64,000 nucleotides of DNA, from positions 246,573,474-246,637,473 of the forward strand of contig CP136065.1 of NCBI GenBank assembly GCA_032622095.1. The letters are read 5' to 3'. The number at the start of each line of letters is the position of its first letter. Positions within the stretch are counted from its first letter, which is position 1. The stretch comes from Siphonodentalium dalli (lineage: Eukaryota; Mollusca; Scaphopoda; Gadilida; Siphonodentaliidae). The translations under genes and the position numbers were made by a program. The notes below the pieces were generated by a model. That model made no database searches. It was not told where the DNA came from and was given only the letters and a program-made list of their open reading frames with translations. This document shows positions 5,515 to 58,720 of the stretch, in pieces.

Positions 5515-6512
5515 GCTGATATTCTTAACAATGGGGGAGTGCACTGACGGAATTGATGCCCTTATTAGGCACCGGAGCCAGAGACCAACTTTCGCTAGAA
5601 TGATTTCTTGGGAAATGAGCAAAGATGCTGTACCAAGAAAACGGCACAGCTCTAAAACATCAAAGAAGCGACATCCATCTGCTGTCGGAGAGGTGACAAA
5701 TGAAGAGGAGGATGAAATTCCAGATGACGATTTATCTGATTCGTATTCTGATGATAGCATTTATTTAACAGCTGATGAGAGCCCCAATGAACATAGTGAT
5801 GATGATTCTACAAGTGTCGGAACCGAGAGTGTTTCTGAATCGATAACATCATATGTTAGTACAGCCTCCACTGACTGTGACTCAACACCCTCAGAGGGAC
5901 GTCAAAGGCGTTTGAGTAAGAAACAAAGAAAGGGCAAACGCAAAACATTTGAATTATTCTATTGTGATAGCTTATTTGTTAATGAAGATTCTTTTAATAT
6001 CACTGGACTCAATGAATTAACGCTCAATGTTGATGAGTTACTGAATGAATCGCAGAGAGTTTCTGTGCATAAAAGTGTGCCTAGTCTTCTGGAAATTTGT
6101 TTGCAAGTAACATGGAAAAGTGGATTGAAATTTGAGGAAACTCCACCTGGCTTGATGCCACTTATACATTCTCATCGACACGGTGGTAAATTCTCGTCCA
6201 TGCAGCTGAAGACATTGCAAAATTATTTCAAAGATAAAGATGAGGACAATTTACTGACTGATACCTGGCAAATGAACATTAACGGCAATTCTGAGAAACA
6301 CAAGAAAATTCTGTGGAGAGCAAAAAGAAATTTATGGAATGAGCATGATATAGACTGTCCCTGGCGGTCGGGGTCAGAACAAAACATTCCATATCATGGT
6401 TCACTAATGACTTCGTTTCTCCGATGGACATCAGAGCAAGCCTTGTTTATAAATTTAAATGTTAATGATACATCTTCTCAGGATTGGCATGTAACCATGG
6501 CAGCACTGTCAG
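5515..6512 (+). CDS. Exon 1: N-terminal charged region (ATG at 5531)
   Basis: Codes residues 1-327 and leaves one base. ATG 5531 is preferred over the in-frame ATG at 5477 because a typical acceptor (TTTATATTTCCAG) ends at 5514, between them. Residues 36-48 are basic, 58-96 very acidic and Ser-rich (contains EEEDEIPDDDLSDS), and 123-138 again basic (RQRRLSKKQRKGKRK), a possible nuclear localisation signal. The remainder is ordinary folded-protein composition. The donor CAG|GTCAGT at 6513 is chosen over reading on to the stop at 6557 because it gives the phase required by exon 2. A second, diverged copy of the exon end plus donor lies at about 6826-6880. Confidence 0.8.
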
Positions 6513-6825
6513 GTCAGTATTGTCTCACTGCAATAGATAATTTCTTCAATTTGGTTTGAATGTTTCTGCATCAGTTATTCGAATAACATAGCTTATATAC
6601 TGTCACAGATATTTACTCTTTTATATTCTGTCACAGATATTTACTCTATTAGTGTTCCTAGGCCTCATTCAAAATATTCTTATTTCCCCTCACCCAATGT
6701 TTAAGAGTGAGTAGCTACATGTAGTTAATTAATTTGTCCTTACATTTACCGGAGGTCACTAGATAGGTTCAATAACTGTTATAACTTGAGATTTGTCCAG
6801 ATATAAAAGTATGACATAGATCTCA

Positions 6826-6880
6826 GAATTGGCATGTTACCATGGCAGCAATGTCAGGTCAGTATTGTCTCAGTGTTAAG
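6826..6880 (+). repeat. Duplicate of exon 1 3' end plus donor
   Basis: TTGGCATGTTACCATGGCAG, then CAATGTCAGGTCAGTATTGTC, matches 6484-6530 with few differences, including the donor. It lies about 340 bases into intron 1. Confidence 0.75.
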
Positions 6881-6899
6881 TAGTGTTCAGAGGACTACG

Positions 6900-7270
6900 T
6901 TACGTTCGTCTGTTGTGTTGGATCTGTTGAACCGTTCCACACACATTGCGGTTGCAATTACATCCGTCTTCTGAATTGTGAGAGAAAATAAGTGCTCTCA
7001 CTGTGTTTTCCTCATGGGAAGGAAACTCAATGCGCCAATCCACAACAAATTCAATACAATTAGCTCGTCTGAACACTCCTAGGTCGCCTCGCATATATAA
7101 GAGAATGCATTGGCTTAACACATTAAAAATTATAAAATTGTTAAAGAATGTAAGAAAAAATAGTAAAAAGTGTTAAAAAAAGATTTTTTTTTAGGCCAAT
7201 GCATTCTCTTATATATGCGAGGCGACCTATGGTCGACTCGCATATATAAGAGAATGCATTGGCACAGGGC
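6900..7270. mobile_element. Palindromic element with TATATAAGAGAATGCATTGG arms
   Basis: Contains three copies in alternating orientation of CGCATATATAAGAGAATGCA joined through GACCTATGGTCGACTC (itself palindromic), separated by an A/T-rich stretch. The same core occurs in TTAA elements at 29550, 30725, 31115, 49204 and 58749, so this is probably a rearranged or TIR-less member. Confidence 0.55.
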
Positions 7271-7330
7271 ATAACTGTAACTATCACAATTTGGTCAAGG
7301 AGCCAGTTCCAATGATATCCATATTTGTAT

Positions 7331-15485: not shown

Positions 15486-15625
15486 ACTGATGACTGAAAC
15501 CAAATGCAGGGAATCTAAAGCTCTCTGGTTATCAGTAATAAACAGTGGCTACAAACAAATGACAACCACCTCGTACCTCGCGGCATTTGATGCTCTGCTG
15601 TGCTTTCATTCTGGGACATTCCCTG
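15486..15625 (+). CDS. Exon 5: helical segment with tandemly copied 3' end
   Basis: Acceptor TTACTCCAG ends at 15485; donor CCTG|GTAAGTTAG is a strong consensus. Codes residues 478-524, including CRESKALWLSVINSGYKQM and SYLAAFDALLCFHSGTFPG. The last ~25 exon bases and the donor recur as a degenerate ~55 bp tandem array in the following intron, so donor choice here is potentially ambiguous; the first site is chosen because phase matches exon 6. Confidence 0.83.
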
Positions 15626-16960
15626 GTAAGTTAGAGTTACCACCCTTACTGTGGTTCCATGGTAGGACATTCCCTGATAAGCTAGAGTTACATCCCTTGC
15701 TGTGCTGGGACATTCCCTGATGATTGAGAGTTACCTCCCTTATTGTGCTTTCTTGTTGGGACATTTCCAGGTGAGATAGAATTACCCCCCATTCTGTGAT
15801 TCCATGCTGGGACATTCCCTGGTTAGTTACATCTCTTACCATGCTTTCATGGTGGGACAGTCTCGGGTGAGTTCGAATTACCTCCCTTACTGCTCTTCCA
15901 TGCTGTTACATTCCCTGGTGAGTTTGACTTACCTCCCTTCTGTAGTGGGTTCAGTGCAGTAACCAATTCTAGGCACACTGGGTGGAGGATGATGTTGGTT
16001 CCGCCGAGGACTCTGATGGTGCTGTGTCCTCAGGTTCAGTGATTCCATCATTGCGGAGTGCCCGTAAGAATAACTCTGGATCACTGTTGCACACGATCCG
16101 GTCTTCCAGTTGGTTCCAATCCAGGATCGTCTTGTTAAAGAAAGAATGTTTTAATTGATTACAGCTAGTACGCCGTGGCTCGAAGGCTCTTACATTTTTA
16201 CATTCTTCTTTTTCGACGATGTTTGTTGTCAGGTAGTTGTTTGCGCTTAATGCTGGCACCATCCCCTCAACTATCGTATGGAACTGAATGAGACGCTGTT
16301 CTCTTCGTCGCTCGTCTAGAGGTTTTAGATCTAGTTCCTCAAGCATGGTGGTGACTGATGTAATTCCTTGGCGACTATAATTATTCTTTATGAATCTCGC
16401 GCTCCTTCGCTGTACTTTTTCAAGGTGGTCAATGTCTTTCTTTAAGTGGGGGTCCCATACCACTGCTCCATATTCGAGCGCCGATCTCACTGTAGCGATG
16501 TAAGCTGTCTTTTTACATTTCTCTGGAGCATGTCTGATGTTACATCTTAGGAGGCCTAAAGCACACTTTGCTTTCTTTGTTGTTTTCCTAATATGGGCTG
16601 ACCATGTCAGGTCGTTGGTAAAGGTCAGTCCCAGGTATGGGGTCTCAGCTGTTGTCTCTAGTATGTGTTCTCCCAGTTGGTACATGTTTGATGATTTGTT
16701 TTTGGTGCTCATGATGTTACATTTTTTGGAGTTGTGTTGTGTGCTTCCATGCTGTGAAATTCCTTGATTAGTTAAGAGTTACATCCCTTACTCTGCTTCC
16801 ATTCTAGAACATTCCCTGGTGATTTAGAGTTACCTCCCCATATTGTGTTTCCATTATGGGACATTCCCTGGTGATTTAGAGTTACCTCCCCATATTACCT
16901 GGTAAGTCAGATTTACAACCCTTACTGTGATTCCATTCCAATTCTCATTATTTTACCTAA
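15600..16960 (+). repeat. Tandem array derived from the exon 5 / intron 5 junction
   Basis: Degenerate ~55 bp units of the form CTTTCATTCTGGGACATTCC, then CTGGTRAGTTAGAGTTACCTCC. The first unit spans the genuine donor. Donor-like GGTGAGT or GGTAAGT sites persist near 15770, 15865, 15915 and 16903, others are decayed. The array is split at about 15955-16745 by a non-LTR retrotransposon fragment. Confidence 0.82.
15969..16712 (-). pseudogene. Non-LTR retrotransposon reverse transcriptase, C-terminal fragment
   Basis: A 247-codon open frame with YLGLTFTNDLTWSAHI, the Lys-rich helix, then VRSALEYGAVVWDPHL and ARFIKNNY, typical of the thumb region of jockey/CR1-clade reverse transcriptases. The catalytic FADD region is absent, so this is a 5'-truncated copy (3' end at about 15960). 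It is inserted inside the exon 5 junction array. It may be fairly young, because the frame is intact over 740 bases. Confidence 0.8.
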
Positions 16961-18087
16961 ACTAAGCAACATTGAGGCCGGTTTCTATTTGAACGGGTGA
17001 TCACCGAGGGATTCTGGGTATGTATCTCTAAGCAACATACACAGTGTGTAATGATATTTATTGGCCTGTGGTAGAAATATTCTAGTGGTGTTTCAAATAT
17101 TGTGCCGCTAGTGGTATCCATAGGCACAGGACTTAGGTTGAAGTGATCAGTTATCCCCAACACTGTTCACTGTTAATTGATGTTGTAATTTTGATAGATA
17201 TATATTTGTAACTGAATAATAATAATAAATCAATTATAATTTCTGCTAGATTAGTATCCAGTTTGATTGATTGGACGAAATTTTATTGGCTGGTTTTGCT
17301 TGTGATAATAGAAGGTCAAGGCCGCTCTATTCAAGATCAACTTGAACGTAAACAAAATTAAACTGACACAGAGGAACAGCGAACTATTATGTCATTAAAA
17401 ATCACTTTCTGAATTGAAAAATATGAATTAGATACTATATGAATGTGATGTGAATCCGCCTGATGCTTTGGCATTCTGCAATTTTACAATATTTATGTCT
17501 CTGGTTATCTCGTTCAAAATCAGTTACTGAATTGATGGGATTCCCTCCATTTCATTGGAGAGTGGCGAAGCATGCGCGTGATTTCATTGGCTTATGGCAT
17601 AACAGATCACTTCACAGATCAGAGGTCATTGATCTGTTGACAAGTTTCCCACGCATTGTCAAACTCAACTATTGTTGGAAAACTGAATACAGGCAATATA
17701 TCCATAACTCATTTTACTCATCGCAATATAGGAGACATCATCTTCGAGTTTTTATCAGTCAACGATATTCGTGACTGATTATTCTTTCGCATCTTGTTGT
17801 ATCTATAACTATTTCTAAATACTACGATTCTCACAAATATTTACTGCACCAGGAATGCACTCCATATTTGGAAATGGTTTATTACGTAATGTTGGGAATG
17901 GCTCGTCATTATAGAAATTAAATTTAGTGGACACATCTAGAGACGTACATCACTTAGGATTATCGTCGTCTTTTTAAAGAATAGAAATGTAGAAGTTATT
18001 GTTTGGCATTTTTTACACTTTCAATTAACTGAGAAAGCATCAGTAACCAAGGACACACAGTAAACATGGAAAATTCCCCTCTGGGAT
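16961..18087. other. Intron 5 middle
   Basis: No clear repeat. A 103-codon frame at 17463-17774 has no recognisable content and is not called. Confidence 0.4.
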
Positions 18088-18320
18088 CAAGCCTTGAAAT
18101 AGTGTGTCTGTCATTTGCAGAATGAGGTCCCCAGAGGGTGAATTTAGTGATGCTACCCTGCATAGTGGGCTAGCATCACCAAATTCACCCTCTGGGGACC
18201 TCATTCTGCTGAGGTGTAAGCAGAATGAGGTCCCCAGAGGGTGAATGAGGTCCCCAGAGGGTAAATTCACCCTCTGGGGACCTCATTCTGCAAATGACAG
18301 ACACACTATTTCAAGGCTTG
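18088..18320. mobile_element. hAT MITE, CAAGCCTTGAAATAG family, exact TSD
   Basis: 233 bp; TIR CAAGCCTTGAAATAGTGTGT at both ends, flanked by TCTGGGAT at 18080-18087 and 18321-18328. Internally it repeats GCAGAATGAGGTCCCCAGAG in both orientations. The 8-bp duplication assigns it to hAT. No coding capacity. Confidence 0.9.
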
Positions 18321-18328
18321 TCTGGGAT

Positions 18329-19962
18329 AATCGACTCTCATGATTGTTAACCTTCACGTATTCCTACGCCAGTGATGCTGCCACATATTTCTTTATACAG
18401 AAATATAAGCAACAAGTAACTAACTAAGGCATTGTGGGGACTTGTCCAATCAGAATGTAGGAAAATGAGAGAGAAAAATATACCCGGTTCAAAGCCCATG
18501 CCTGTGTTTAAGCCCACCCATATCTTTTGGCCAAATTCCATGCACAGGGGTATATTCGTGTTTAAGCCCACCCCAAATTTTGGTCAATTTCAGCAGTGGT
18601 AAGTAAGTATTTGCTAATGATACTCCCCAAATAAATAATTCCAATATATAAACGGGAAGTATATTCGCAAACGATCGGTGACGGCAAGAATGCCACGAAA
18701 AATGGAAAGTTATACTTCGTAGGTAAGTGATAATATTAAATGAAATCAAATAAAATGAATCTTAAATTCTCATTTGTTTATTCAATTATACTTCCCGGGG
18801 GAAACCAAATACAAAAGAACTCACTCGCTAACAGCATATAGCTTTAAAAACCATTTGCGGCTATGAGCGTGCAATACTTTAATCAAAGCGCACCTGTTCA
18901 ACTACAGTACTGTAAAAACATATTTTTCGTGTTCAGTGACAACGCACCATAGGTATGTTCCTGCATGTGACCAAACACAAAGAATTGGCTTCTTGGTTAT
19001 GTAAACACGCAGTGGGTATAATAATGGAACAGAAGGGGGAACTTGTCATTCCAATGTCTTCCAAACTACGTCAACGTTATTCACTCGAAACCAAAATAAA
19101 GGTTATTGACATCAAACTGCATTTTGTTCACGTTTTACAGTATAAACAATTCAGGAACAATAACACTAAATATTCAAACACGTGCTTTTTTCATTCGGCA
19201 AACCTCGTCAGATTCCGTCACACCCAGAGGTCACACCCAGAGGTCACAGGTCGAGGAGTTCAGAATGGTGCTTTTTTATACGTTTTAGCAGAAATACAAG
19301 CCTTTTGTCAGTCCTGTTAAATAAGTACACTCACTGGCTTTTGTTAAACATGCAATTAGTCGCTATTGTAACATCCTCAATGTGGACAATGGATCACGAA
19401 TAAAGCGCCGGGTTTATTGTTTTCCTAATCGGATTAAGTCTGAACATTGATATAAACTATAGACGTCTGATAGACTATAAGATAAGGGATTTACCCATAA
19501 CCCACACTGCCGCTTACATAATAGTGTCATTTTAACATGGGAATTTTGGGCAATAAAACTACAAGACTTAAAGTGTTATCATATATTTTAATATTCACAT
19601 TTAATTGAAAAATTACTTTCTCAAAGTAACTTATAAATACTTACCTTTACTTAATTTGGAAGCCGGTATATTTCCCAAATAATCGGCGTTAGATCGGCTT
19701 TCATAAGTTTTAATGTCCCGATTTCTTAGGATTTTTGGTCTGCAAAGGGCCATATCCGAGTTTAAGCCCACTTGGATTTTTTAGCTCAAATAAAACAAAG
19801 GCCCCCTGGGCCTAAACGCGGGTCAGTACGGTAGGTGTAATTATATGCAGATAAAACATAATAAAATTTGCATAGATTTCTACATATAACACATGCAAAA
19901 GTCTAGCATTGATATCTAGTCTATGTCTACAAATAATTCATGTATGTTCTCACCTATTACAG
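18329..19962. other. Intron 5 end, possible pogo-like transposase trace
   Basis: Phrases GTTTAAGCCCACC recur near 18510, 18560 and 19765 and may mark ends of one element. A short forward frame at about 19024-19130 contains LRQRYSLETKIKVID, which resembles the N-terminal helix-turn-helix of pogo/Tigger transposases, but nothing else supports it. Confidence 0.3.
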
Positions 19963-20113
19963 GAGGTGACATTGACTGGCTGAAGGATGCGGAAGATAAA
20001 CTGAATAAAGCCGTTAAAATGAGGATTCCCCTTAATATGCATTATTCATTCATTCTGGCATGGCTTGGGAAGACAGAAGAATCTAATTCAGCATTTCTGA
20101 AGCTCTCTTATGG
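19963..20113 (+). CDS. Exon 6: helical segment
   Basis: Acceptor CTATTACAG ends at 19962; donor ATGG|GTAAGG at 20114. Codes residues 525-574: DIDWLKDAEDKLNKAVKMR and HYSFILAWLGKTEESNSAF show a typical helix-turn-helix solenoid pattern with Ala and Gly at tight positions. Diverged copies of the 3' half, each with its own donor-like site, follow in the intron. Confidence 0.85.
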
Positions 20114-20515
20114 GTAAGGAATTTGAAGATAGAAGAATCTAATTTAGCATTTCTCAACCTATATTATGGGTAAAGATTTCAAACAACCTATTTATGTTAA
20201 TCGGCATTACTCCTTTGTTTTTTCATGGCTCAAGAGAACAGAACAATTTCCCCCTTGTTTTGTGTAGCTTGGGAAAACAGAGAAATCAAATTTTGCATTT
20301 CTCAAACTATCTTATGGGTAAGGTGTTTGAAGACAGAAAACGGAACTCTAATTTATCATTTCTAAACCCATCTTATGGGTAAGACGTTTTAAACAACTTA
20401 ATTTATGTTTATATATTAACATTAACACCTTTGTTTTTGTGTGGCTCAAGAAAACAGAAGAATCAAATTTAGCATTTATGAACCTATCTTATGGGTACGG
20501 TGTTTAACCTTTCAT
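20114..20515 (+). repeat. Array derived from the exon 6 / intron 6 junction
   Basis: Four diverged copies of AGCATTTCTGAAGCTCTCTT plus ATGG|GTAAGG follow the genuine donor. Donor-like GGGTAAGG, GGGTAAGA, GGGTAAAG and GGGTACGG occur near 20169, 20317, 20379 and 20494. Confidence 0.78.
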
Positions 20516-20789: not shown

Positions 20790-21181
20790 ATTGCCTGCAT
20801 AGCAGGTTAGCATCACCAAATTCACCCTCTGGGGACCTCATTCTGCTTAGGCCTCATCTTCTCTGGAAAGTTTTTTTCCTTTATTATAAAATTTCTATGG
20901 AAACTTAGATTCTAAATTTTTTTAGTTTAGTTTCTCTATATCCCCAAATTGGCAGACGATGCATTGCATAATCGACGTTCCCAATGGTGTACATCACAAT
21001 ACTCACCATTTGGGAACTTCAATCTGAGTCTATGTCTCCCATAGCATATGAGGCCATGCAGAGAATGAGGTTCGCAGAGGGTGAATTTAGTGATGCTAGC
21101 CCGCTATGCGGGATAGTGTCACTAAATTCACCCTATGGGGACCTCATTCTGCAAATGACGGACACACTAAACTCAGGCTTG
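20790..21181. mobile_element. hAT MITE family member, longer form
   Basis: Carries CATCACCAAATTCACCCTCT near the left and GACACACTAAACTCAGGCTT at the right, with a ~200 bp central spacer missing from the 18088 copy. Spacer sequence (AAACTTCAATCTGA-type) is shared with 48718 and 55930. The left terminus is lost. Confidence 0.65.
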
Positions 21182-21441
21182 TTGCCCCAATTTTACAAAC
21201 AAGTTGGATGAGAGTCTAGTTATTCATTTATATTGGCCTAAAATGTTTAATATTTCATATCGATTCCCCAAACTCTTGTGTCAGGCTATTTTTACTTAGT
21301 TTAAAATTCATACAAATAATAATACTGCACAAATTTAACTACATGTAAGGCAGTCAAGTCCTTATTTACAGATTTACAGTACCTAGTGGCAGCTGTCATA
21401 ATGAAAGTCTGATGTGTGATAAATGTGTCTAATATTTACAG

Positions 21442-25615: not shown

Positions 25616-25744
25616 ACCGATATCTCTAGCTGATTTGTGCAGTACCCAAATTAACCTGCGTTTCACTGTCGATGGATACCTCACCGGGGATATGCAGCAG
25701 TTACTTCCTCCAGTCCGGGGAGTGTACCTTGATCCACATACCGG
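25616..25744 (+). CDS. Exon 8
   Basis: Acceptor TTATATTTCCAG ends at 25615; donor CCGG|GTAAGA. Codes residues 621-663, including ISLADLCSTQINLRFTVDG and MQQLLPPVRGVYLDPHTG. The last ~55 exon bases plus the donor are the founding unit of a 12-site tandem array immediately downstream. The first donor is used here because phase joins exon 9; in principle later copies could also be used. Confidence 0.85.
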
Positions 25745-26345
25745 GTAAGAATTACTTCCCCTGTCAGGCGAGTTATCCTCGATCCACATAGCGGGTAAGA
25801 ATTACTTACCCTGTCAGGCGAGTTGTCCTTGATCCACATACCGGGTAAGAATTACTTCCCCTGTCAGGCGAGTTATCCTCGATCCACATACCGGGTAAGA
25901 ATAGATATCAGCAGTTACATCCCCCTATGAGGGGAGTGTCCTTCAATCCATATACGGGGGTAAGAATCACTTCCCCTGTCAGGCGAGTTCTACTTGATCC
26001 ACATAGCGGGTAAGAATAGATATCAGCAGTTACATCCCCATGTGAGGGGAGTGTCCTTCAATCCACATACCGGGTAAGAATTACTTCCCCTATCAGGTGA
26101 GTTGTCCTTGATCCACATAGCGGGTAAGAATTACTTCCCTTGTCAGGCGAGTTCTACTTGATCCACATAGCAGGTAAGAATTACTTCCCCTGTCAGGGGA
26201 GTGTACCTCGATCCACATACCGGGTAAGAATAGATATCAGCAGTTACATCCCCCTGTGAGGGGAGTGTCCTTCAATCCACAAACTGGGTAAGAATTACTT
26301 CCCCTGTCAGGCGAGTTGTCCTTGATCCACATAACGGGTAAGAAT
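25745..26345 (+). repeat. 12-donor tandem array derived from exon 8 end
   Basis: Units of about 50 and 59 bp end in TTGATCCACATACCGG followed by GTAAGAAT. Donor-like GTAAGA sites lie at 25745 (genuine), 25795, 25845, 25895, 25960, 26010, 26074, 26124, 26174, 26224, 26288 and 26338. The longer units still resemble exon sequence (CAGCAGTTACATCCCCCTGT). Confidence 0.93.
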
Positions 26346-26350
26346 TACTT

Positions 26351-41104: not shown

Positions 41105-41426
41105 TATAATTTTTATAATTAAAATTACTTTTTCCTTAAGGGAAGCCCGAAACTGAACTATCATAGATCCCTCCCATGGTGGTGCCATTCCCAACCCCGC
41201 GACTCGCAAATCTCATGATTAAGTCGGAAATAAAAAAACTGACTAGACAATAGATAGAATGCGGGTGTATTCATGCGAGACTAATCTGGACACGGGTGTG
41301 AGTGGGGTCGGCACAGCAATAAAATTTTAACCCTCCTGATTGACACAAGGCCGGAGACGTAATCCATATAGTTCAGTTTCGGGCTTCCCTTAAGGAAAAA
41401 GTAATTTTAATTATAAAAATTATATT
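41105..41426. mobile_element. MITE related to the 6.6 kb element
   Basis: Long TIR TATAATTTTTATAATTAAAA, then CCTTAAGGGAAGCCCGAAAC at both ends; ~320 bp. Its right half is the reverse complement of the left subterminal part of the 6.6 kb element, so it is a likely deletion derivative sitting directly beside it. Confidence 0.7.
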
Positions 41427-42815
41427 TCACCCCACTAATTTTCTTCCTTAAGGTCGCCTCTAATTTTGTTCACTTGTTAACAAGAAAAAAGTGGCTGCAG
41501 AGACTCCAGACAAGATGGCGTCCATCATGGCGGCCATTTTAAAAAAATGCACCAGGTCTCTTTGATCGCCATTATAGTAAAGATGATGTCACATGCCATC
41601 TTGTTTTCCGCTCAATTCGTTATGCTAATATACAACCCTTACAAATTAGCCAAAAATCCGACACCAGAATCCAATATGGCGGCCAAGATGGCCACCGAAA
41701 TGTGAAATTATGCTATTTTTCTGACATGTTACCACCTTTCGTTTGTCTCTGTGGGAAAATGTTGGCATCTTTGCGTCATGTTATACATTTATCATATAGA
41801 GGAGTCATTGGCGAACACATGGGGTCCATAATATACATTCATTGCAGGATATTTTTGTCCAATATCACGTTTTCCCAAATGCCGGTATAATAGGTCAAAG
41901 CCGAATCTACGTTAATAACGCGATGTAATGTTTCGAATCAATGAATGTTATTGCTATTATAACAACACCCATGCATATATATGTGCAGGAGATACTCAAG
42001 CTAGGATTCCTCTTATACCTAAGTTGAGGATTATTTACTCAAATCCAAGATGGCGGCCAAAATGGCCACCAGAAATAAAAAATCGCTGATTTTAACATCA
42101 GTGAACATTATTGTCATGACAACTCCACACCTGCTTACTATTGTGAGTTGGGAACACTTAGGCGAAGAACTTTCCTTGTACCGTATCCAAATAAAAGTCC
42201 CCCAAATCCAAAATGGCGCCCACAATGGCGGACAGATTTTGAAAATTCACCAAAATTCCCTCATATTCACATCATTGGGCATTATTGTCGAGACAACTCC
42301 ACCCATGCTTACAATTGAGTTGGAAATACTGAGGTGAAGTAATTACATTAGATCTCATGCAAGAAATTGTTTTCCAAATCGAAGATGGTGGCCAAAATGG
42401 CGACCGAAATTTGAAAACAAGTCTACATTCCTTTACTTTCTTACGATGGGCGTTATTGTTTCGCGATTTCTATCCACCATTACATGTTGATATGGAATAG
42501 TGACATGAAGTATTCATTAGGGTTTGGCAATTGATACTCACAGCCAAGATCGCTGCTAAATTGGCGGCTAGAAATTGAAAAGAAATCGATATTTTCACAT
42601 ATTAATTTCAACTTTTTGTCATAATATCGGTATGTATGGACGAAACTGTACATAAACCATCTACTAGTTCAACTTAAAGGTATAAAAACGCATAACATAG
42701 CTCGTATCCTTCTGGAAAGATGAAAAACCACAATTAATATCGCGATGTGGCATTTCGAAATCCAGTCTCCACTTAGCGCCGATAATGGCCGTAAGCGTAG
42801 GTGCGCCAAATAGTT
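41427..42815. repeat. Left arm of the long inverted repeat
   Basis: Reverse complement of about 44965-46345. Internally, CAAGATGGCGGCCAAAATGG-like motifs recur about every 165 bases. Confidence 0.85.
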
Positions 42816-42831
42816 ATATAAGAACAATTAC

Positions 42832-44013: not shown

Positions 44014-44964
44014 AACCATACCACCCAGCGTTAGTATAACATATCAACCAACTATCAAATGTATCGCCTTTAAGACTACACCCCAGTCTTGGTGGGGCTT
44101 ATACAGCAGTAGCCAATGGCATACTCCTGGTCCAGTTGTTTAAGAACGGCTTCCAAACGGATGTGAACATACAATCTTAGCATACAAGGAAAGCAAAGCC
44201 ACACATGAGATCCTGTCTGAATCTAAAACATAACAAAATAAGGGGCGGTGCAGTCATGGTCCAATTTCATTTCCACTATCATGACACATACCCACAAACT
44301 AGCACCGTGTGTATTGTTATCATCTGCTTGCAACTGTTCGGTGAGACGATTGCTTGTTCTTATGATCATGTTCAAGGAGTTTGGGTATATTATGCATTAT
44401 GGTCTTCTACGCCTTAGCAGAAATGCATCCATCAAATGTCGGGCTTTCAACATTCGAAGCCATATACAGAAGTTGTCCGGGTACGTCAGTGCATTAGATG
44501 GGTATGTGAATTGATGAACCATATATTGAGAAGTGGCTGTTTGGGAAAATCACCAGGTGTACACGTTGTTATCCCCATTAGGTCACCAAAGCTGACAATA
44601 CGCAGATAGATAGGTCCTTCTGAAGCTACTATACGCATCGACCGAATACCTATTATAGTGTATCGCACAAGATGACGCATATACCCCATATGTAGCATCT
44701 GAATTATACCATAAGCTATACCACGAATGAAGCTCGCTAAGAATTCCAAGCTTTCGAAACAAACACGTGAGCTGGACACCGGCATATGTATTGTTTGAAA
44801 CATTCCGATTAGTGGCACCCTTCTACAAAGAAGAGTAGTGAACTGTTGTTGTGAGTGAGATAGATTAATCTGACGAAGAGACGGAAGCAAGTCTTGATAA
44901 TGCTGAATGTGGCAATTCAGAATAAGCTCAGGTACTGTTGTTTTGATTCTTGGAAGTCATAATA

Positions 44965-46345
44965 TGACTATTCGGCGCACCTATATACGGTTACGGCCAG
45001 TATGAGCCCTTAGTGGAGAATGGATTTTGAAATGCCACATCGCGATTGTGGGTTTTCATCCTTCCAAAAGGCTACGACTTACATTGGAACTAATAGATGG
45101 CTTATATTATGTACCGTTTCGTTTATACAAATTAATATTATGACAAAAAGTTGAAATTAGTATGTGATAATATCGGCTTCTTTTCAATTTCTGCACGCCA
45201 GATTGGCCGCCATATTGACTGTGAGCATCACTTGCCAAACCCTAATGAATAATTCATACATATCAACATGTAATGGTGGGTAGAAATCGCGAAACAATAA
45301 CGCCCATCGTAAGAAAGTAAAGGAATGTAGGTGTGTTTTCAAATTTTGGTCGCCATTTTGGCTGCCATCTTCGATTTGGAAAACCATTTCTTGCATGAGA
45401 TGTAAGGTAATTACTTCACCTCAGTATTTCCAACTCAACTGTACGCATGGATGGAGTTGTCTCGACAATAATGCCCAATGATGTGAATATGAGGGAATTT
45501 CAGTGATTTTTTTTAATCTGTCCGCCATTGTGGGCGCCATTTGGGATTTGGGGGACTTTTATTTGGATATGGTACAAGGAAAGTTCTTCGCCTAAGTGTT
45601 CCCATCTTACAAGAGTGAGCAGGTGTGGAGTTGTCATGACAATAATGCTCACTGATGTTAAAATCAGCGATTTTCAGCAATTTTTTATTTCTGGTGGCCA
45701 TTTTGGCCGCCATCTTGGATTTGGGTAAATATTCCTCAACTCAGGTATAAGAGGAATCCTAGCTTGAGTATCTCCTGCAAATATATATGCATGGGTGTTG
45801 TTATAATAGCAATAACATTCATTGATTCGAAACATAACATCGCGTTATTAACGGAGATTCGGCTTTGACCTATTATACCGGCGTTTGGGAAAACGTGATA
45901 TCGGACAAAAATATCCCGCAATGAATGCATATTATGGTCCCCATGTATTCGCCAATGACTCCTCTATATGATAAATGTATAACATGACGCAAAAATTCTA
46001 ACATTTTCCCACAGAGACAAACGAAAGGTGGTAACATGACAGAAAAATAGCATATTTTCACATTTCGGCGGTCATCTTGGCCGCCATATTGGATTGTGGT
46101 GACGGATTTTTGGCTAATTTGTAAGGGTTGTATATTAGCATAACGAATCGAGCGGAAAACAAGACGGCATGTGACATCATCTTTACTATAACGGCGATCA
46201 AAGAGACCTGGTGCATTTAAAAAAAAATGGCCACCATGATGGACGCCATCTTGTCTGGAGTCTCTGCGGCCACTTTTTTTTCTTGTTAACAAGTGAAAAA
46301 AATTAGAGGAGACCTTAAGGAAGAAAATTAGTGGGGTGAAGTTAA
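44965..46345. repeat. Right arm of the long inverted repeat
   Basis: Mirror of the left arm. The 179-codon reverse frame at 45873-46412 crosses arm and terminus and is not considered a gene. Confidence 0.85.
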
Positions 46346-46398: not shown

Positions 46399-47513
46399 CT
46401 TTTGGAGCGCAAACCGCCATGTGGCTTTAAAGTTTAGGTTTTACTACCTGCCAAACTATGATTGATGCAAAGGTGTTGTCAGTTTGGAGGAATAAACATC
46501 TGTCCATCGAGTTTACATGATGACAGTAATCCCCATGCATCATAATTGGTAAAATGAAAATAAAATATAGTGGGTCGCACATGGCAAACTAAATGTTTTA
46601 ATTGATATAACACCCGCGTACATTGTCCACTCTAGCACCTGTTACCCTGTCTGTGACCAGATTTTGTTTCCGCTAAACAGTGAAGTTCGACTTAATGTCG
46701 ATCTATTTATCCATGCTAATTTTGATCACTTTGTACAAACCTTTAGCTGGGACTGAGCTCTTGCTTTGACTTACATCGCCGCAAGTGGGTGTATATCTAA
46801 CATTATTCCACACCCATTGACGTGAGGCACATGTTTTCAACGGATTCCCAGCCATTGAGTACATAATAGTTTATACCTCTAGTGGAATACAAGCCGGAAA
46901 TATTCTTGTTGTCATTGTTGCCAAGAAAGATAACATACATAACATCAACGATTCGCTTTGGGTGATGCCCCGATCATTACTGGTTATTCATCAGACTTAA
47001 ATCACAATAAAGGTAGCTATATAGCATCAATGAAAGCGACAGTAATGGATTGAACTTATCTGAAACAACAGTGCAGAATAATTACAGAACACAATTTGCA
47101 TCATAATCTCAAATCTTTTATCGAACTTGTTGTTACATTTCGCTATAGCCTCTCGCGAAATATATACTTGCACCATCCGCAACTCATTCGATAAAATATT
47201 CTCGATTAAGATGCGCGTTGTGTTATCTATTTCTTGATGGAATCTCTTGTTTATCTCAAGAAACACACAATCAAACTGAGCTTGATTTTCATTGATGCAT
47301 CCATTCATTACAGTATATAACAGAAAAGATAGCCAATAACAAAATATCGCAAAAGAAAAGTGACAAGTGGAAGGAGCTATTTGATTGGCTGGCTCAGCAT
47401 GCATACGAGAGAGGCAAGTCACAATGCTTCGGGGTAAGTGCTCATAGCTTACTAGTCTATTCGCTGTTTCAGCTTGGGTATAAGAGAAGAAAGTCATGAT
47501 CCTACTGGGTGAG
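46399..47513. other. Intron 10 segment
   Basis: No repeat recognised. A 156-codon reverse frame (47027-47497) contains a hydrophobic stretch (FSFAIFCYWLSFLLYTVMNG) but has no homology I recognise. Confidence 0.35.
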
Positions 47514-47767
47514 CAAGCCTTGAAATAGTGTGTCTGTCATTTGCAGAATGAGGTCCCCAGAGGGTGAATTTAGTGATGCTACCCCGCATGGCGGGCTAGC
47601 ATCACCAAATTCACCCTCTGTAAACCTCATTCTGCTGAGGTGTAAGCAGAATGAGGTCCCCAGAGGGTGAATTTGGTGATGCTAGCCCACTATGCGGGGT
47701 AGCATCACTAAATTCACCCTCTGGGGACCTCATTCTGCAAATGACAGACACACTATTTCAAGGCTTG
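47514..47767. mobile_element. hAT MITE, CAAGCCTTGAAATAG family, exact TSD
   Basis: 254 bp with TGGGTGAG at 47506-47513 and 47768-47775. Same architecture as 18088-18320: two inverted pairs of GAGGTCCCCAGAGGGTGAAT. Confidence 0.92.
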
Positions 47768-47775
47768 TGGGTGAG

Positions 47776-49203: not shown

Positions 49204-50584
49204 GTAACTCTTCCATGACTTCAATAAATTACGCGAAAACCCTGTGCCAATGCTTTCTCTTATATACACAAGTCTCCCATAGGGAGCCATGCATGTACAT
49301 GTATAAGAGAATACATTAACCTAACAATATTTACCTTGACCTCATAAGCCAGAGCATTCTCTTATATATGTGAGGCTCTCTATGGGAAACATGCATATAT
49401 AAGAGAGTACATTAACCTAACAATATTTACCTTGACCTCATAAGCCAGAGCATTCTCTTATATATGTGAGGCTCTCTATGGGAAATATGCATATATAAGA
49501 GAGTACATTAACCTAACAATATTTACCTTGACCTCATAAGCCAGAGCATTCTCTTATATATGTGAGGCTCTCTATGGGAAACATGCATATATAATAGAGT
49601 ACATTAACCTAACAATATTTACCTTGACCTCATAAGACAGAGCATTCTCTTATATATGTGAGGCTCTCTATGGGAAACATGCATATATAATAGAGTACAT
49701 TAACCTAACAATATTTACCTTGACCTCATAAGACAGAGCATTCTCTTATATATGTGAGGCTCTCTATGGGAAACATGCATATATAATAGAGTACATTAAC
49801 CTAACAATATTTACCTTGACCTCATAAGACAGAGCATTCTCTTATATATGTGAGGCTCTCTATGGGAAACATGCATTAACCTAACAATATTTACCTTGAC
49901 CTCATAAGACAGAGCATTCTCTTATATATGTGAGGCTCTCTATGGGAAACATGCATTAACCTAACAATATTTACCTTGACCTCATAAGACAGAGCATTCT
50001 CTTATATATGTGAGGCTCTCTATGGGAAACATGCATATATAATAGAGTACATTAATCTAACAATATTTACCTTGACCTCATAAGACAGAGCATTCTCTTA
50101 TATATGTGAGGCTCTCTATGGGAAACATGCATATATAATAGAGTACATTAACCTAACAATATTTACCTTGACCTCATAAGACAGAGCATTCTCTTATATA
50201 TGTGAGGCTCTCTATGGGAAACATGCATATATAATAGAGTACATTAACCTAACAATATTTACCTTGACCTCATAAGACAGAGCATTCTCTTATATATGTG
50301 AGGCTCTCTATGGGAAACATGCATATATAATAGAGTACATTAACCTAACAATATTTACCTTGACCTCATAAGACAGAGCATTCTCTTATATATGTGAGGC
50401 TCTCTATGGGAAACATGCATATATAATAGAGTACATTAACCTAACAATATTTACCTTGACCTCATAAGACAGAGCATTCTCTTATATATGTGAGGCTCTC
50501 TATGGGAAACATGCATATATAAGAGAATGCACTGGCAAAGGATCTTTAATGTTGCACCTGCGCAGCTCCCAGCATGAATGGATT
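49204..50584. mobile_element. TTAA-family MITE with 13-fold amplified palindromic core
   Basis: Left end TAACTCTTCCATGACTTCAA, right end GCGCAGCTCCCAGCATGAAT before TTAA, matching reversed 58749-type ends. Inside, a ~96 bp unit is repeated 13 times (49355-50530): CATTCTCTTATATATGTGAG, CTCTCTATGGGAAACATGCA, TATATAATAGAGTACATTAA, CCTTGACCTCATAAGACAGA. Two units are ~80 bp, lacking one palindrome half. Confidence 0.85.
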
Positions 50585-51466: not shown

Positions 51467-51621
51467 TTCTTTGACTGCAGTTCCTCTGAAAGTTTCGAGA
51501 ATTATGAGCTCTTCACAGAAATTGAGACAATTCATAAGAAGAGGTCAATTTGTCCAAATTTCAGGAACAACTCGATACCTGGTAGTGTGCTATGGATAGC
51601 ATATGGGTATACAAACGGCAC
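51467..51621 (+). CDS. Exon 12: first propeller-like strands
   Basis: Acceptor TTTCTTCTCTAG ends at 51466; donor GCAC|GTGAGT. Residues 826-876 include FDCSSSESFENYELFTEIET and SVLWIAYGYTNGT. The last motif, continued by SVRVYDSKGTELFTVD in exon 13, reads like a WD or propeller blade (strand, Asn-Gly turn, strand). Seven near-identical copies of the last ~60 bases and the donor follow. Confidence 0.85.
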
Positions 51622-51985
51622 GTGAGTTTATAGTATCCTGGTAGTGTGATATGGATAACATATGGGTATACAAACGGCACGTGAGTTTAGAGTATCCTGG
51701 TAGTGTGATGGATAACATATGGGTATACAAACGGCACGTGAGTTTATAGTATCCTGGTAGTGTGATATGGATAACATATGGGTATACAAACGGCACGTGA
51801 GTTTATAGTATCCTGGTAGTGTGATATGGATAACATATGGGTATACAAACGGCACGTGAGTTTATAGTATCCTGGTAGTGTGATATGGATAACATATGGG
51901 TATACAAACGGCACGTGAGTTTATAGTATCCTGGTAGTGTGATATGGATAACATATGGGTATACAAACGACACGTGAGTTTATAG
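51622..51985 (+). repeat. 7-copy tandem array derived from the exon 12 / intron 12 junction
   Basis: ~59 bp units GGATAACATATGGGTATACA, AACGGCACGTGAGTTTATAG, TATCCTGGTAGTGTGATAT. Every unit retains GCAC|GTGAGT (the last GACAC). Copies are nearly identical, so the expansion is recent. The reverse-strand frames here are artefacts. Confidence 0.95.
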
Positions 51986-53250
51986 TCAGTCAGCAGGCTT
52001 GTCATTCTGAGGCCCCTTCCCATCATCGGTCACCTAAACTCAAATTTGCGCGGCAGGTTAAAGCCCTCCTCATCGCTATTCTCGCAGATGAGATATTTAA
52101 AGAATATCTATCCAGTCAATCATGTTCCCTGTGAACATGCATCGCTGTGCCAATTGAAAGCGTGTGGAATTGTCATGTACTTATTGAAAACAGACTATAG
52201 TTAGTTTTGCAGATAATTCCATTGTGTATCGATTGCATCACCTGTTACGTACTTTTAGTGTGTGCAGCCGATTGCATCGCAGTAGCGGGGGAAGGGGGGG
52301 GGGGGGGGGGGGGGGTAATATACGTTACCACTTTGGAGAATGTAATGAATGTAACACTAATAAGGGATGACACAAACCTGTTACTGATTAACTCTCTTAT
52401 AACTTTGAACATTCCATGTCCCGTGAACTTTGTCAATAATGGTGAACGTTTTGACAAAATGAAATTTGAAAAATGAAATATAGTCTTATATAGATGCAGT
52501 CCGATGCATGTTGTCCATTTTGGATATAATGATCGCTAATTATCGATCCATAGGAACATAAATTCACAGTTAAACATAATTTATAAACAATGGCAAGGAC
52601 GTAACACGACATCAACGGCAAAGGAAGCCGCTGGCCCATCACTGACTGAGAACATTGTCACACACCAAATCAGACATCAGATGCATCAGAAGTGGCGAGA
52701 GAACAGGCTGTTACATACACTGTTAACTATTACTTCTAGGCATGGCATTTGTGCATGGTACTGCTTAAATACACAACCATACCCACAACCCCCCCCCCCC
52801 CCCCCCCCCCACCCCCCCCCTTGGGCGATTAGTTGATGAAAGTAAATAACCGTCAACTACCACACCTGTCAAAGGTTAGTCGATTAATGCTTGATGGTCC
52901 GTGTCAATAGCCATTGAGTGGGCATTCACTATAAAATGAATGAACGAGGCTTTGGTGTGATGATCCATGATCCCATTTTACTTGTTGCTTGGAAAGTTGT
53001 ATATTTTGACAAGTCTTTAATTTTTCTAGACCACCATGCGATATATTCCTCCTTAAGTTTAGTAAACTTAATTTCTTCAGACCAGGAGTTGATGTTGACC
53101 ATATTTTCATCAAAACAAGGCAAGATATATAGAATATAGTGTTTCTGAATAACAAATTTAATCCACGAGTGGGATTGGCGATTTACACCACGAGCTTGAG
53201 TACCCATGCTTCCAGGACCAATACTGGTACCAATTGAGAAATTATCCTTC
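51986..53250. other. Intron 12 segment
   Basis: Apart from the homopolymers, no repeat or gene recognised. Confidence 0.35.
52294..52820. repeat. G22 and C22 homopolymer runs about 500 bp apart
   Basis: 22 Gs at 52294-52315 and 22 Cs at 52789-52810 (then A and nine Cs) face each other as an inverted pair. The DNA between them is unremarkable. Confidence 0.8.
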
Positions 53251-53254: not shown

Positions 53255-55668
53255 CCCTTTCAGTGCCGATTTTTGTATCAACCCATATTTCCTTGATCAT
53301 TTTTATGTGTACCCATACCATGTATGGTACACATAATGCCGACGTCCGGATCAACCATCCGTCGTCCGTCCGTCCATCCATCCGTCTGTCCGTCTGTGCG
53401 TAGACACTTGCTATCCGATTCGATTACTGGAGTATCTTTTATCGGATCATGTTTAAATTTCATGTGCATGTTTACAATGACACACCCCTCACCTGTATAG
53501 TTTTTGGTATAGATCGATTGATCGGTTTAGAAATTATTAACACTTTGCATCCACACATGGGCATGTGCTATCCGATGCAATAACCAAAGTGTTTTTTGTC
53601 CGATTCTGTTCATATTTGAAATGTAGGTTTATGATGAAACACCCCTCACCTGTATAGTTTTTGGTATCGATCAGTTGATTGATTTAGAAAATAATTAACC
53701 CTGCACACAAATTCTATCTGATGCATGTAAGTCAAACAATTTGCTTATGATCTGCCTCATATTTCTTACCTAGATCATTGTTAGCACGTTCTTTATCTGT
53801 ATGGATTTTGGTATTGTTTTGTTAACCCTTTCCACTCTTGTTTTTAAATAGAATTCATCCAAGCTGTGAAGACTTAAATATTTTTCATCTGATCAGCACC
53901 AAATTTGATACATATGATCCTCACCCCAAAATACAAATAAAGTTCAAATTTGGGTTTGATCTGATATATTTTAACAGAGTCATGGCCATTTATAATTCAA
54001 GTAACTGATAATGTAACTAATAGCTGTTGTCTGCCAGTGTGGGGATTTTAAGAGAAGTTGTCATGCCACAGTGCCTCTCTTATTAGTTTTATTTATTTTA
54101 GCTGTACACTAGATTGAGTTAAATAGCCTTGGTGCCTGCAGGTGGCTGTCAAGAATATAATTAATGGATGGGTCTCTATTCTGTTCTGAGCAATATTAAG
54201 TTAACCCATTTGTTGAAACTGGTTCATTATTAGTTAATGTACACCTATTCCAAAATTACAAATTGGAATAGTCCATTGTTTATTTGTTGGGATGTTTTAC
54301 AGACATTTTTGTTTATAGACATTTTTGTTTACACTCACACTGTAACTTAGAAATAAATTAACTCACCCATTCCATAGTTCCATCGTATGATATCATTGAA
54401 CATTATTAACCCTCTCTGCACATCATATGGTCTTCTGATGTTTTCCATCTGATCATTCTCCTATTCTATGTCCAGGTTGATGGTGATCCACTTTTCCCTT
54501 GCATATTTAATGATATTCTGCTGTTTACAGACATTGTATCTTTCAAATGATCAGCTTAGAATAAAGTTAACCATAGATATACTGTATGCAATCCAATGTT
54601 ATGACTCTAATATTTTCAATCTGACCATTCTCATATCTCACCTTTATTTATCTAATAATTCTGTTTTAAAATATTTTATATCCAACCATTATCAATCACA
54701 TTTAATATCGAGGTCTATACACCCATCACTTGTATAGATGTTCAAGTATTGATTGGTCTCTAAGTCAATGATCTCATAAATTTTTAATATGTAGCTAACA
54801 CAACAATATTATGACTCAGGTTCCAATGTAAGAAGTAGATAAATAGAGTTGTTATGTGCTTAATTTCATAACTATTATATCTTTAACAGCTATGGTGCAT
54901 CTGTCTGACTGTGGTTGGGTTATTTAGCTTTATCACTCTATAACACATACATGTATCTGTGTTGGAGTTACCCACTTTTCGCTTGCATGGATTTTGCGAT
55001 TAAAATTAACCCATTCCATAGACACATGATATCCGATAGGCAGATATTAAATTATCTCTTTCACCTTGAACCAGGTTCAGTAAGGATTTCTATAAGCCAC
55101 CAATTGACCAATATTCATCATCAGATGAAATATCTTATTTTAAAATTCACTCAATTGCATTTGGGCTGCAGAATAATAATGGTGCTGGTATTCTTGAGAC
55201 TACTTATTGGTGAAATATTTCTCACCGATAACTTTTATAATCTCATCCAGGTTAATCATGACACATAAATTTCTTCACCTGTATAAATTTTGGTATTGAT
55301 TGAATGGTTTTGAAAATATTTACCCCATATTTAATAATATTCTGCTGTTTACAGACATTATATCTTGAAATTTAATGCCATATCCATGGTCATATTGTGT
55401 TTATGTGAGCAAGTTGCCCATTAAGTCTGATTCCACTTGGGAACTATTAATTAATGGTAAGCTGTGAATTGTTGAAAGTCTTATACTCATGACAAAATTG
55501 GTATACAGATTTATGAAAATAGCTAATCACTATCATCAAGGTATGGGTTAAACATCTGCCGATCGTTAAAATTTATTGATTATAATAATGTGATTTATAA
55601 TCAATAAATTTGAAAAATGATCAAGGAAATATGGGTTGATACAAAAATCGGACTTGCCACTGAAAGGG
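53255..55668. mobile_element. Long TTAA element, CCCTTTCAGTGCC family
   Basis: TTAA at 53251-53254 and 55669-55672. The outer ~55 bp and ~100 bp match the two halves of the 188-207 bp palindromic MITEs. The 2.25 kb interior starts with a foldback (GTACCCATACCATGTATGG), then CCGTCCGTCCATCCATCCG and degenerate ~155 bp units with CACCCCTCACCTGTATAGTT. Either a second element inserted into a MITE or a longer family form. No coding capacity. Confidence 0.65.
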
Positions 55669-55929: not shown

Positions 55930-56332
55930 CAGTTCCTTTTTAGTGATGCTATCCTGCATGTTGGGCTAGCATCACCAAATTCACCCTCTGAGAACCTCAT
56001 TCTTCTTAGGCCTGAACTGCTATAGGACCTATAGGGATCAGATTGAAGTTCCCCACTTGAAGTTGGTGATGATCACCCATTAGTCATCTCTATTATACAT
56101 TTTATCTTCTGCAAATTAGGGGATATAGAAACTGAATAGAAGGGAAAAAGTAACTAAAAACAATGTTAATTTGAGACTAAAGATACTTCCAATATGAAGA
56201 TGCCTAAGCAGAATGAGGTCCCCAGAGGGTGAATTGGTGATGCTAACCCACCATGTGGGGATAGCATCACTAAATTCACCCTCTGGGGACCTCATTCTGC
56301 AAATGACAGACACACTATTTCCAGGCTTGGTT
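55930..56332. mobile_element. hAT MITE family member, long form
   Basis: TTTAGTGATGCTATCCTGCA at the left and GACACACTATTTCCAGGCTT at the right; spacer shared with 20790 and 48716. The left terminus is missing. Confidence 0.65.
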
Positions 56333-56363
56333 GTCTGTGTTAAACCATTCATGTGAGTACATA

Positions 56364-56576
56364 CAGAAAGGCCATAAATAATCGACTCCTTAACCACAGC
56401 AGAATTATGGGTAACTTTTCAGGATTTAGTCGGAAATATGGCTTGTTGCCATTCATTGGAAAGCTCTCACTGAGAGCTTTCCGATGAATGGCAACAAGCC
56501 ATATTTCCGATGAAATCCTGAAAAGTTACCCATAATTCTTCTATGGTTAAGGAGTCGATTATTTAGGGCATTACTG
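56364..56576. mobile_element. Tc1/mariner-like palindromic MITE
   Basis: 213 bp between TA dinucleotides, nearly a perfect hairpin meeting at AAAGCTCTCACTGAGAGCTT. TIR CAGAAAGGCCATAAATAATC / GATTATTTAGGGCATTACTG. Confidence 0.82.
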
Positions 56577-57357
56577 TACATTGCATTATAACACAGAACT
56601 TCCAATTAGTAATTGCAGCTAATAAAGTTCAATATTGGGATAAATGCAATATTGCAAATCAATATTTCTGTATTAAACTGAATATGGAGGTGAATATGGT
56701 TGAGGAATAAATTACGCAAATATGTGGCCTTAAAATTAGCTATTTTTCAAATTTTCGAGTGAAAATGAACTTAAAAAAAAACAACACGCTATATATATTA
56801 TGACGTGTAGATAGCGATATTTTAGAAAATAATAACGTGTAGATGTGGTTTTTTTTGTGACTGCGTGGAATACCTTGCACAAACCACTGCCTGTTCACAA
56901 GGGAATGGCATAGCCTTTCATCAACCCATAATATATTTCTACGATGTCAAACCTGTCAAATCCCAACAACTAACACTTTATTGACATAAATACAAGTAGA
57001 TTTTCCTTTGCTCCAAAGACAGCTACCATCTGTTATTGATTGGAAACAAGAAACCATCAGGACCAATGCCATATAAGTCGTGCGTTCATGCATTATTATT
57101 AATTTCAGCTGAAAATACAGCTCTGAACTATAATTCGGCAGGTGAGAACACGCAACAGGCTCGTCTGAACACTACTTACCGATAACAAATTGTTGATTCT
57201 GATAATGTCACTGATATTTGATTACGGTGGCTCTATTTGTTGTGAAATCTTGCTCCCCGATTCGATTCGAGATTCACTTGAATATAGGAGATATATAACA
57301 GGTACATGAAGGTCTCCAAGATCTCATGTTATATTTTCTTTCTATTCCTTTCTTCAG
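56577..57357. other. Intron 12 end
   Basis: AT-rich, no repeat recognised. Confidence 0.35.
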
Positions 57358-57498
57358 ACAAAGTGTCCGCGTGTATGATAGTAAGGGGACAGAACTGTTC
57401 ACTGTGGATGCGATATCACAGGTGGATACGGAGCCTCCGATCTCTACGCCCTATATACTGGGGAACAGGATGTTTGGAATTCATAATGACGGAACAAG
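57358..57498 (+). CDS. Exon 13: propeller-like strands
   Basis: Acceptor TTCCTTTCTTCAG ends at 57357; donor CAAG|GTAGGA. Residues 877-923: SVRVYDSKGTELFTVDAIS, then PYILGNRMFGIHNDGT. The correct frame is set by two bases carried from exon 12. The 3' half is copied at 57535-57596 and, more diverged, at about 58430-58720, each followed by intact or decayed GTAGGA-type donors. Confidence 0.82.
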
Positions 57499-58720
57499 GT
57501 AGGATTTCTATACATCATGCTGACTTTGTCACACATCCCATCTTGACTCCCTATATACTGGGGAATCGGATGTTTGGGGTGCACGACGGCAAAACAAGCT
57601 ATTGTAAAATTCTTTTAATTCGTGGGGGTCTATTATTATTCATTTCGTGGTTTTGCTCAATCACGAAATTATCCAGCGAAATAATTGGCTCTTGAGTTGG
57701 TAGAGGAACTATCAATATATGAAATGGTCACAAAGATCGGGCATTAAGTCTGTTTTCCACATTTCATAAAAGGGTGGAGAAAAATACGGAAGACGAGATG
57801 CTTTTTAAATAAAAATATCATTCATGATCGAAAACAATATTTATATACTACATCATCTGATCCCTTCTCTAATAGTTTGTATATATAATGCTTAATTAAT
57901 TATTCTCTTAATAAAGGCTAGTGGTTTCACTGAACACTGGCAGCATAAAAAAATATAAAAAACTACCAATGTGGAAATGAAGCCGGTAGATATCAGTTTA
58001 GTGATTGTGTGATGCGCTTTTGGCGCCGGAATACCTGGGGGTCTCAATAGTGACTTGTCAAAGATGTCATAATCCTGCTATTGTAGGACCTGTTTGTGGT
58101 GTATGTCGGTCCGTTTCAGGAATGACTTTTAGATTCCGCGTTTTAACGTTGTGGCATTTGTGTGTTCTGTTTTGTACTTCCGATTGAATAAAATCGATAT
58201 TTGGAACCACGTGTATTGATTATGTGTGTTGCATGAAATGGCAGCCCGATTCAATTAACAAACATCAAAGTCATGAGTGTTGATGTGGATAAATTTATCA
58301 ACGAATTCAATTCCCCATGAAAAAGCCTTTTAATGAGAAACCATGAAAATTTATACTGACGAAATCAAAGCTATTCACAGTAGTATTCATCTTTTTGTCA
58401 CCATGTCTGTTAGTCCGTTGTCATAGGCCTCGTATATATCCTCGTATATATGCTGGGGATCTGGATCTTTAAAGATGCCCAAACCCATAATAAGGTAGGA
58501 TTCCTATATACATTATGATGTCAAGCTGCCCGTTATCACAGGTCCCTATTTAACACCCTATATACTGGGAAATTTGGTGTCAGGTTCCACTCAGGTAAAA
58601 CAAGGTAGGATCCCTATATATTTAATGCTGTCCCTGTGTCTTCGTGTCCTGTTGTCAGAGATAGATATGGAGCCTCACATCTTTAGACCCTATATATGGA
58701 GATTATCTGTCAAATCGCTT
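57499..58720 (+). repeat. Copies of the exon 13 / intron 13 junction
   Basis: CCCTATATACTGGGGAA, GGATGTTTGG and CAAG|GTAGGAT-type donors recur: a close copy at 57535-57600, and diverged copies at about 58430-58500, 58545-58615 and 58640-58700. Donor-like GTAGGAT sites are retained at 58496 and 58607. Confidence 0.78.

Follow-up and report, generated by a model that had tools for sequence, protein, structure and literature searches.

Seven duplicated exon-intron junctions in one predicted gene, compared with the mirages of amphioxus

Minisatellite-like tandem duplications of exon-intron boundaries have been described in amphioxus as "mirages", a name that goes back to work on Adh3 (PMC3087553). 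Going by the parts of the papers drawn on here and below, mirage units measure 10-72 bp in Adh3 and 150-160 bp in globins and occur on either side of exons, copy number differs between haplotypes, many copies (not all) carry splice signals, and the Adh3 data together with globin RT-PCR (reverse transcription PCR) suggest normal splicing (PMC3087553). In lancelet PGBD5, repeats of 60 and 108 bp lie at exons 3 and 4, and Adh and troponin C are cited in the same account (PMC3902484). The mirage cases thus comprise Adh3, the globins BflGb6 and BflGb9, PGBD5 and troponin C, with RDH and presenilin added by citation. We report here on a stretch of 64,000 nucleotides of contig CP136065.1 (assembly GCA_032622095.1, forward-strand positions 246,573,474 to 246,637,473), referred to below as the window and numbered from its first letter, in which a predicted gene bears extra copies of seven of its own exon edges. 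Judged against the parts of those papers, this gene is a real case of the phenomenon described, and an unusually dense one next to the mirage genes compared.

Copies of exon edges in the adjoining introns

The gene spans the window on the plus strand, and our predicted model comprises 16 coding exons, E1 to E16 (5531-60732, 3192 nt); all features given below lie on this strand unless stated otherwise. We surveyed its 31 edges (16 donors and 15 acceptors) by local alignment of each edge against its surroundings, taking 60 exon and 40 intron nt at donors and 60 plus 60 nt at acceptors; some copies were also read directly and re-aligned with a separate threshold (the second alignment). Additional copies of the edge were present in the adjoining intron at 7 of the 31 edges, namely the donors of E1, E5, E7, E9, E13 and E14 (6/16) and the acceptor of E10 (1/15), while at the other 24 no copy reached the local-alignment threshold. 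Every copy detected is intronic, downstream of the donors and upstream of the E10 acceptor. In the donor units, the exonic part measures about 28-62 nt, and the intronic part ranges from 8 nt to 23 nt or more.

The copy at E1, the first coding exon of the model (5531-6512, donor TCAG/GTCAGT), is a single one (6821-6875), which holds the last 37 exon nt, the donor and 18 intron nt; it is identical at 51 of 55 positions and lies 345 bp away. E5 (15486-15625) contributes its final 28 nt as copy 1 of an array with a unit of about 51 bp, which comes in two parts. The first (15598-15946) consists of the exon copy and 6 intronic copies (15650-15946); the second (16740-16936), about 0.8 kb further on, has 4, making 10 extra copies, 9 of them above the threshold of the second alignment. 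Most of the gap between the two parts is filled by a minus-strand open reading frame (15969-16778) that overlaps the first bases of part two; by eye we take it to be akin to the C-terminal part of a reverse transcriptase of the non-LTR (non-long-terminal-repeat) kind, and it gave no Pfam match above cut-off. The E7 donor (exon 19963-20113, array 20069-20505) has the exon copy and 4 further copies, the first being an adjacent 56 bp duplicate; all 4 appear in the second alignment, and 2 in the edge survey.

The largest set belongs to the donor of E9 (exon 25616-25744), where the array (25689-26360) holds the exon copy and 11 others, with periods of 50 and 114 bp according to Tandem Repeats Finder (TRF). 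The second alignment recovers all 11, the edge survey 6 longer matches, and GTAAGAAT is retained in all 11. In four 50 bp units of this array an acceptor-like CAG stands 27 nt upstream of a strong donor, and the gene finder marked potential in-frame micro-exons at 25818-25844, 25983-26009, 26147-26173 and 26311-26337. At E10 (27919-28001) it is the acceptor that is repeated: in the array (27542-27956), the exon's own copy is preceded by 3 others, each made up of the intron end, the AG and 25-38 nt from the exon start. A segment between these copies and the exon (27826-27870) resembles, by eye, a further decayed copy and was left uncounted. The E13 donor (exon 51467-51621, its donor end hand-placed) has a 59 bp unit present as the exon copy and 6 nearly identical copies (51578-51986). 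The three extra copies of the E14 donor (exon 57358-57498) are decayed; they were found in the edge survey and none exceeds the threshold of the second alignment. The first (57540-57601, within the donor region 57436-57601) has lost its GT, while the two others (58447-58520 and 58553-58637, within 58447-58637) retain it by eye, that is 2 of 3.

Counting the exon's own copy, the totals are 2 at E1, 11 at E5, 5 at E7, 12 at E9, 7 at E13 and 4 at E14, with 4 at the E10 acceptor. A first-pass annotation of this DNA had read seven duplicated junctions of one gene, mostly donors, with 2, ~10, 5, 12, 7, ~4 and ~4 copies, and had proposed aligning the arrays to their exons; edge alignment confirms both the junctions and, nearly to the copy, the numbers, and the copies do derive from exon-edge sequence. 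The junctions named were the same ones, but the numbering there runs one lower after exon 5: E7, E9, E10, E13 and E14 are its exons 6, 8, 9, 12 and 13, E1 and E5 being the same in both, and the shift comes from one extra weak exon at 18953-19101. Tandem duplication had been proposed for all seven edges and holds for six. The donors of E5, E9 and E13 lie inside TRF arrays, those of E7 and E14 and the acceptor of E10 are tandem by alignment (at E10 TRF detected the intronic copies only), but E1 has just one copy, at a distance. The reported range from near-identical copies (its exon 12) to decayed ones (exon 5) is also what we see, with E13 nearly identical and E5 and E14 decayed.

A dispersed element as the common origin of the arrays was considered and rejected, as no junction array matches another (pairs more than 2 kb apart, at least 60 bases). 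The earlier statement that the arrays are unrelated, differ in unit and age and are not one mobile repeat is right. The motif AGTTAC-TCCC is common to the E5 and E9 arrays; since in E9 it derives from the exon, we took the sharing as coincidence.

Chance, mutational bias and selection as explanations

We consider it probable that the arrays are mirage-type, junction-spanning minisatellites tolerated in a repeat-rich genome. Support comes from arrays that differ in unit and in decay, from the intronic position of every copy detected, and from the like anatomy in amphioxus, where splicing seems to be normal. What is observed directly is the presence of the copies, where they lie and how they are oriented, how far each has decayed, and that donors show no consistent extra conservation. 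In this scenario, a genome prone to forming and retaining tandem repeats would acquire local duplications, mostly of about 50-60 bp, that span exon-intron junctions. We infer that splicing would continue with the exon-proximal donor or acceptor, and a junction-spanning duplication would then be nearly neutral, because all extra copies would be intronic. Copies may later multiply and homogenise through slippage or unequal exchange, as those of E13 might have done, while others may decay (E5, E14), one array having presumably been interrupted by another element. Growth of an array would be restricted to the intron, as growth into the exon would alter the protein. Tandem repeats are abundant in the window (48 TRF rows), many of them away from exon edges, which suggests that the raw repeat process is a general one.

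How far the arrays concentrate at exon edges depends on what is taken as chance. A local direct repeat (score of at least 50) was found at 19% of 6000 random positions, as against 5/16 donors and 1/15 acceptors; among 77 donor-like decoys lying clear of the exons, some of them array copies themselves, 29 were also in a repeat. At scores of 50, 60 and 70, respectively 7, 7 and 6 of the 31 edges fall inside arrays, and circular shifts show no excess (7.0, 5.8 and 4.8 expected; P 0.53, 0.38 and 0.37). That null, however, lets arrays extend across exons, a placement that selection would rule out; among sampled positions, repeats were found at 12/216 in exon interiors versus 922/5114 in introns. 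With array entry into the exon limited to 60, 80 or 100 nt, only 1.1-2.9 edges are expected (P 0.0005-0.034). The limit of 80 nt is the one closest to the data, in which overlaps reach 78 nt, and under it P is 0.0065, 0.0025 and 0.0018 at the three scores. When six weak exons that had been dropped from the model (1 of their 12 edges lies within a repeat) were restored, 8, 8 and 7 of 43 edges were inside arrays versus 3.9, 3.3 and 2.3 expected under the same limit (P 0.053, 0.027 and 0.018), so that the enrichment is weakened, whereas the 12 safer exons by themselves give 7/23 edges versus 1.4 expected (P 0.0003; by circular shift, P 0.16). A cruder count based on TRF only, with two rows (periods 10 and 1) excluded and the periods picked by hand, places 3 edges within the founding unit versus 0.72 expected (P 0.037); with four further edge cases added P falls to 4e-05, a biased figure, since such weak arrays were sought at edges only. 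All of these tests are post hoc and concern one gene that was selected for its pattern. The earlier argument that such a concentration is hard to expect by chance is thus only partly supported, with limited entry into exons but not with circular shifts, and we regard an excess of arrays at junctions as no more than plausible, dependent on the null chosen and on the doubtful exons counted.

Several of these observations weigh against plain tolerance as a full account of the pattern. Under limited exon entry the edges inside arrays amount to 2.4-5.6 times the expectation, for which tolerance alone is insufficient, and the excess is still 2.1-3.0 times with the six dropped exons restored. At five of the seven edges the duplicates or units measure 50-64 bp, a possible hint of a common process. 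Mismatches at the GT of the copies, pooled, number 3/62 versus 199/1418 elsewhere (Fisher P 0.037, with cells that are non-independent through shared ancestry), and in E9 the donor window ranks 3rd of 41 in conservation among the intronic copies.

One process that could be at work is a mutational one linked to splice junctions (through transcription pausing, R-loops or proto-splice microhomology), which would produce tandem duplications preferentially at donors. It would agree with the excess over the 1.1-2.9 edges expected under limited entry, with the bias towards donors (6/16 versus 1/15 acceptors, Fisher P 0.083) and with the five duplicates of 50-64 bp, in which the donor sits at 55-88% of the unit (calculated by hand). 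On the other hand, no enrichment exists relative to random positions or circular shifts, the signal is weaker once the six exons are restored, the case is a single gene selected after the pattern had been noticed, and the inspected flanks have no common motif by eye. All in all, such a process seems to us unlikely to be the cause. The broader idea of a genome beyond the lancelets with gene-wide, donor-biased tandem duplication in units near 50-60 bp, coupled to transcription or splicing, we hold to be distinctly unlikely, though if true it would keep supplying new introns and alternative exons.

Another possibility is that the extra donors and acceptors are decoys kept by selection, which would tune splicing or give regulated unproductive splicing. 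GT is retained in 28 of 31 aligned donor copies, a count from which E14 (three copies) and one short copy of E5 are absent, and this, like the E9 rank given above, would speak for selection. Distal use at E7, E9, E13 and E14, which are phase 2 donors (4 of the 6 duplicated donors), would also meet an in-frame stop at once, as read-through of each leads to an immediate stop. However, a phase 2 donor of the GTAA, GTGA or GTAG type always yields such a stop, and read-through of the donors of E8, E10 and E15, all without donor arrays, does so too. Moreover, all three GT losses are in E5 (3 of 9 aligned copies), and among intronic copies the donor window ranks, from the most conserved, only 37th of 42 in E5 and 19th of 42 in E7. 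Among the three arrays ranked, extra donors therefore show no consistent constraint above the rest of the unit, E9 being the exception. The suggestion of selected decoys, made in the first-pass annotation, is not sustained by these ranks; we find it very unlikely, and the pattern looks more like a tolerated by-product than a working device.

It might also be imagined that intronic minisatellites are the older feature and that their first unit was later taken into the exon by a shift of the exon end (exonisation), in which case the exon tails would be new coding sequence. Coding log-odds do average 0.012 in the six duplicated tails versus 0.174 in the ten others, but the difference is not significant (Mann-Whitney P 0.18), and the tails of E7, E1 and E9 score 0.12-0.28, inside the range of other tails. 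An origin of the exon ends from minisatellites is thus not favoured, and exonisation appears highly improbable as the explanation.

The gene model and other repeats of the window

The 16-exon model is a prediction, and it contains errors in places. Its exons come from a small, purpose-written gene finder based on dynamic programming, settings that yielded 52 to 246 exons having been rejected. Of the 27 exons of one run, 15 were retained, with E6 as a manual addition, and 12 were dropped, namely the outermost exon at either end, the four 27 nt units within the E9 array and the six weak exons mentioned above (31998-32018, 38647-38768, 39483-39564, 47314-47433, 55075-55209 and 60199-60226). Ends were altered by hand at E1 (including its start codon), E12, E13 and E16. 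Successive phases are mismatched in 2 of 15 cases (E6-E7 and E15-E16), the agreement of the rest being partly forced by the program, and this misfit, together with the 12 of 27 predicted exons dropped, indicates that the model is wrong or lacks exons in places. Its spliced gene and transposons mark the window as eukaryotic. GC content of the window is 38.7% (33-48% in 2 kb steps), and at third codon positions of the modelled gene (GC3) it is 0.40, calculated with E6 one base short; this GC3 is low by lancelet standards.

The identity of the host gene was sought in several ways. Searches of Pfam with five long open reading frames, that of E1 among them, and with six exon peptides yielded no match above a curated cut-off for the host gene, a Protein Data Bank search with the E1 reading frame gave no match, and one with the joined later exons gave three matches at chance level only (E 0.13-0.73). 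A tetratricopeptide identity was rejected, the scores (E 0.06 and 0.19) being too weak for naming. Rfam gave no match at gathering thresholds. Dispersed repeats of the window had no counterpart in two scans of genome_contigs and one of viral_contigs, neither of them a eukaryotic collection, and papers listed for the repeat motifs were unrelated by title.

Other repeats of the window are of various kinds. At 30163-30706, 75 bp past the E11 donor, which itself has no copy, a 26 bp unit is repeated 21 times with a 98% match (TRF). A satellite-like array with a 96 bp unit (49298-50526) has relatives dispersed at 29551, 30720 and 58744, and tandem growth of a dispersed element may therefore be its origin. 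An element resembling a miniature inverted-repeat transposable element, with inverted repeats, is dispersed over 18085-18321, 21059-21184, 47511-47768 and 56203-56333 and is nested or doubled in two places. There are also a 1.4 kb inverted duplicate of 89% identity (41426-42819 and 44962-46340), an inverted pair of 159 bp with 98% identity (34506-34664 and 41234-41391), perhaps a recent dispersed element, and a minus-strand remnant of a Copia-type element (24382-25473; RVT_2 in Pfam, E 1.2e-13).

Comparison with described systems

It has been proposed that junction-spanning duplications supply the material from which new introns and alternative exons arise. With seven of them at varied stages of decay, this gene would offer a direct test bed for distal splicing and for donor hot spots. 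Its novelty may reside in density and possibly in lineage. All cases called mirages in the parts of the papers drawn on are from cephalochordates. If the source is not a lancelet, mirages would not be confined to that group, and such a source, or a genome-wide donor excess, could raise the interest of the case. Among the literature matches listed, judged by title and the start of the abstract and with subscription literature thinly covered, none concerned arrays of repeated splice junctions outside chordates.

Other published cases are related in part, again going by portions of the papers. In the introns of amphioxus VCBP3, whole exons or parts of them, in some cases with canonical splice sites, are found beside the matching exons (PMC2632668), and the likeness consists in exon-derived copies with splice sites in the adjoining intron, reported there as data not shown. 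Human paralogues in segmental duplications have internal tandem repeats at exon-intron boundaries, and 27 intron modifications are reported (PMC2812944). They share with the present gene minisatellites at exon-intron boundaries, but those repeats alter splicing and create new introns in recent paralogues. The potato RdRp (RNA-dependent RNA polymerase) case involves a duplication across an intron-exon boundary (PMC4974935); here, in contrast, the copies lie within an existing intron and no new intron is evident. Earthworm metallothionein was rejected as a parallel, as its repeats lie within an intron (PMC12783039).

The closest resemblance is thus to the amphioxus mirages, which overturn the first-pass statement that no described system does this (PMC3087553, PMC3902484). 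In both, the repeat unit includes the exon-intron boundary (here at 7/31 edges), the copies are tandem and minisatellite-like (here except at E1), and the extra copies are intronic while the authentic site is at the exon, although proximal use is something we infer for this gene. Next to amphioxus Adh3, whose paper is known to us by citation, a density of seven edges may not be unprecedented. As far as the parts of the papers drawn on describe them, the other mirages affect two globin genes, at a single boundary each, and PGBD5, at two exons, whereas here seven edges of one gene are affected.

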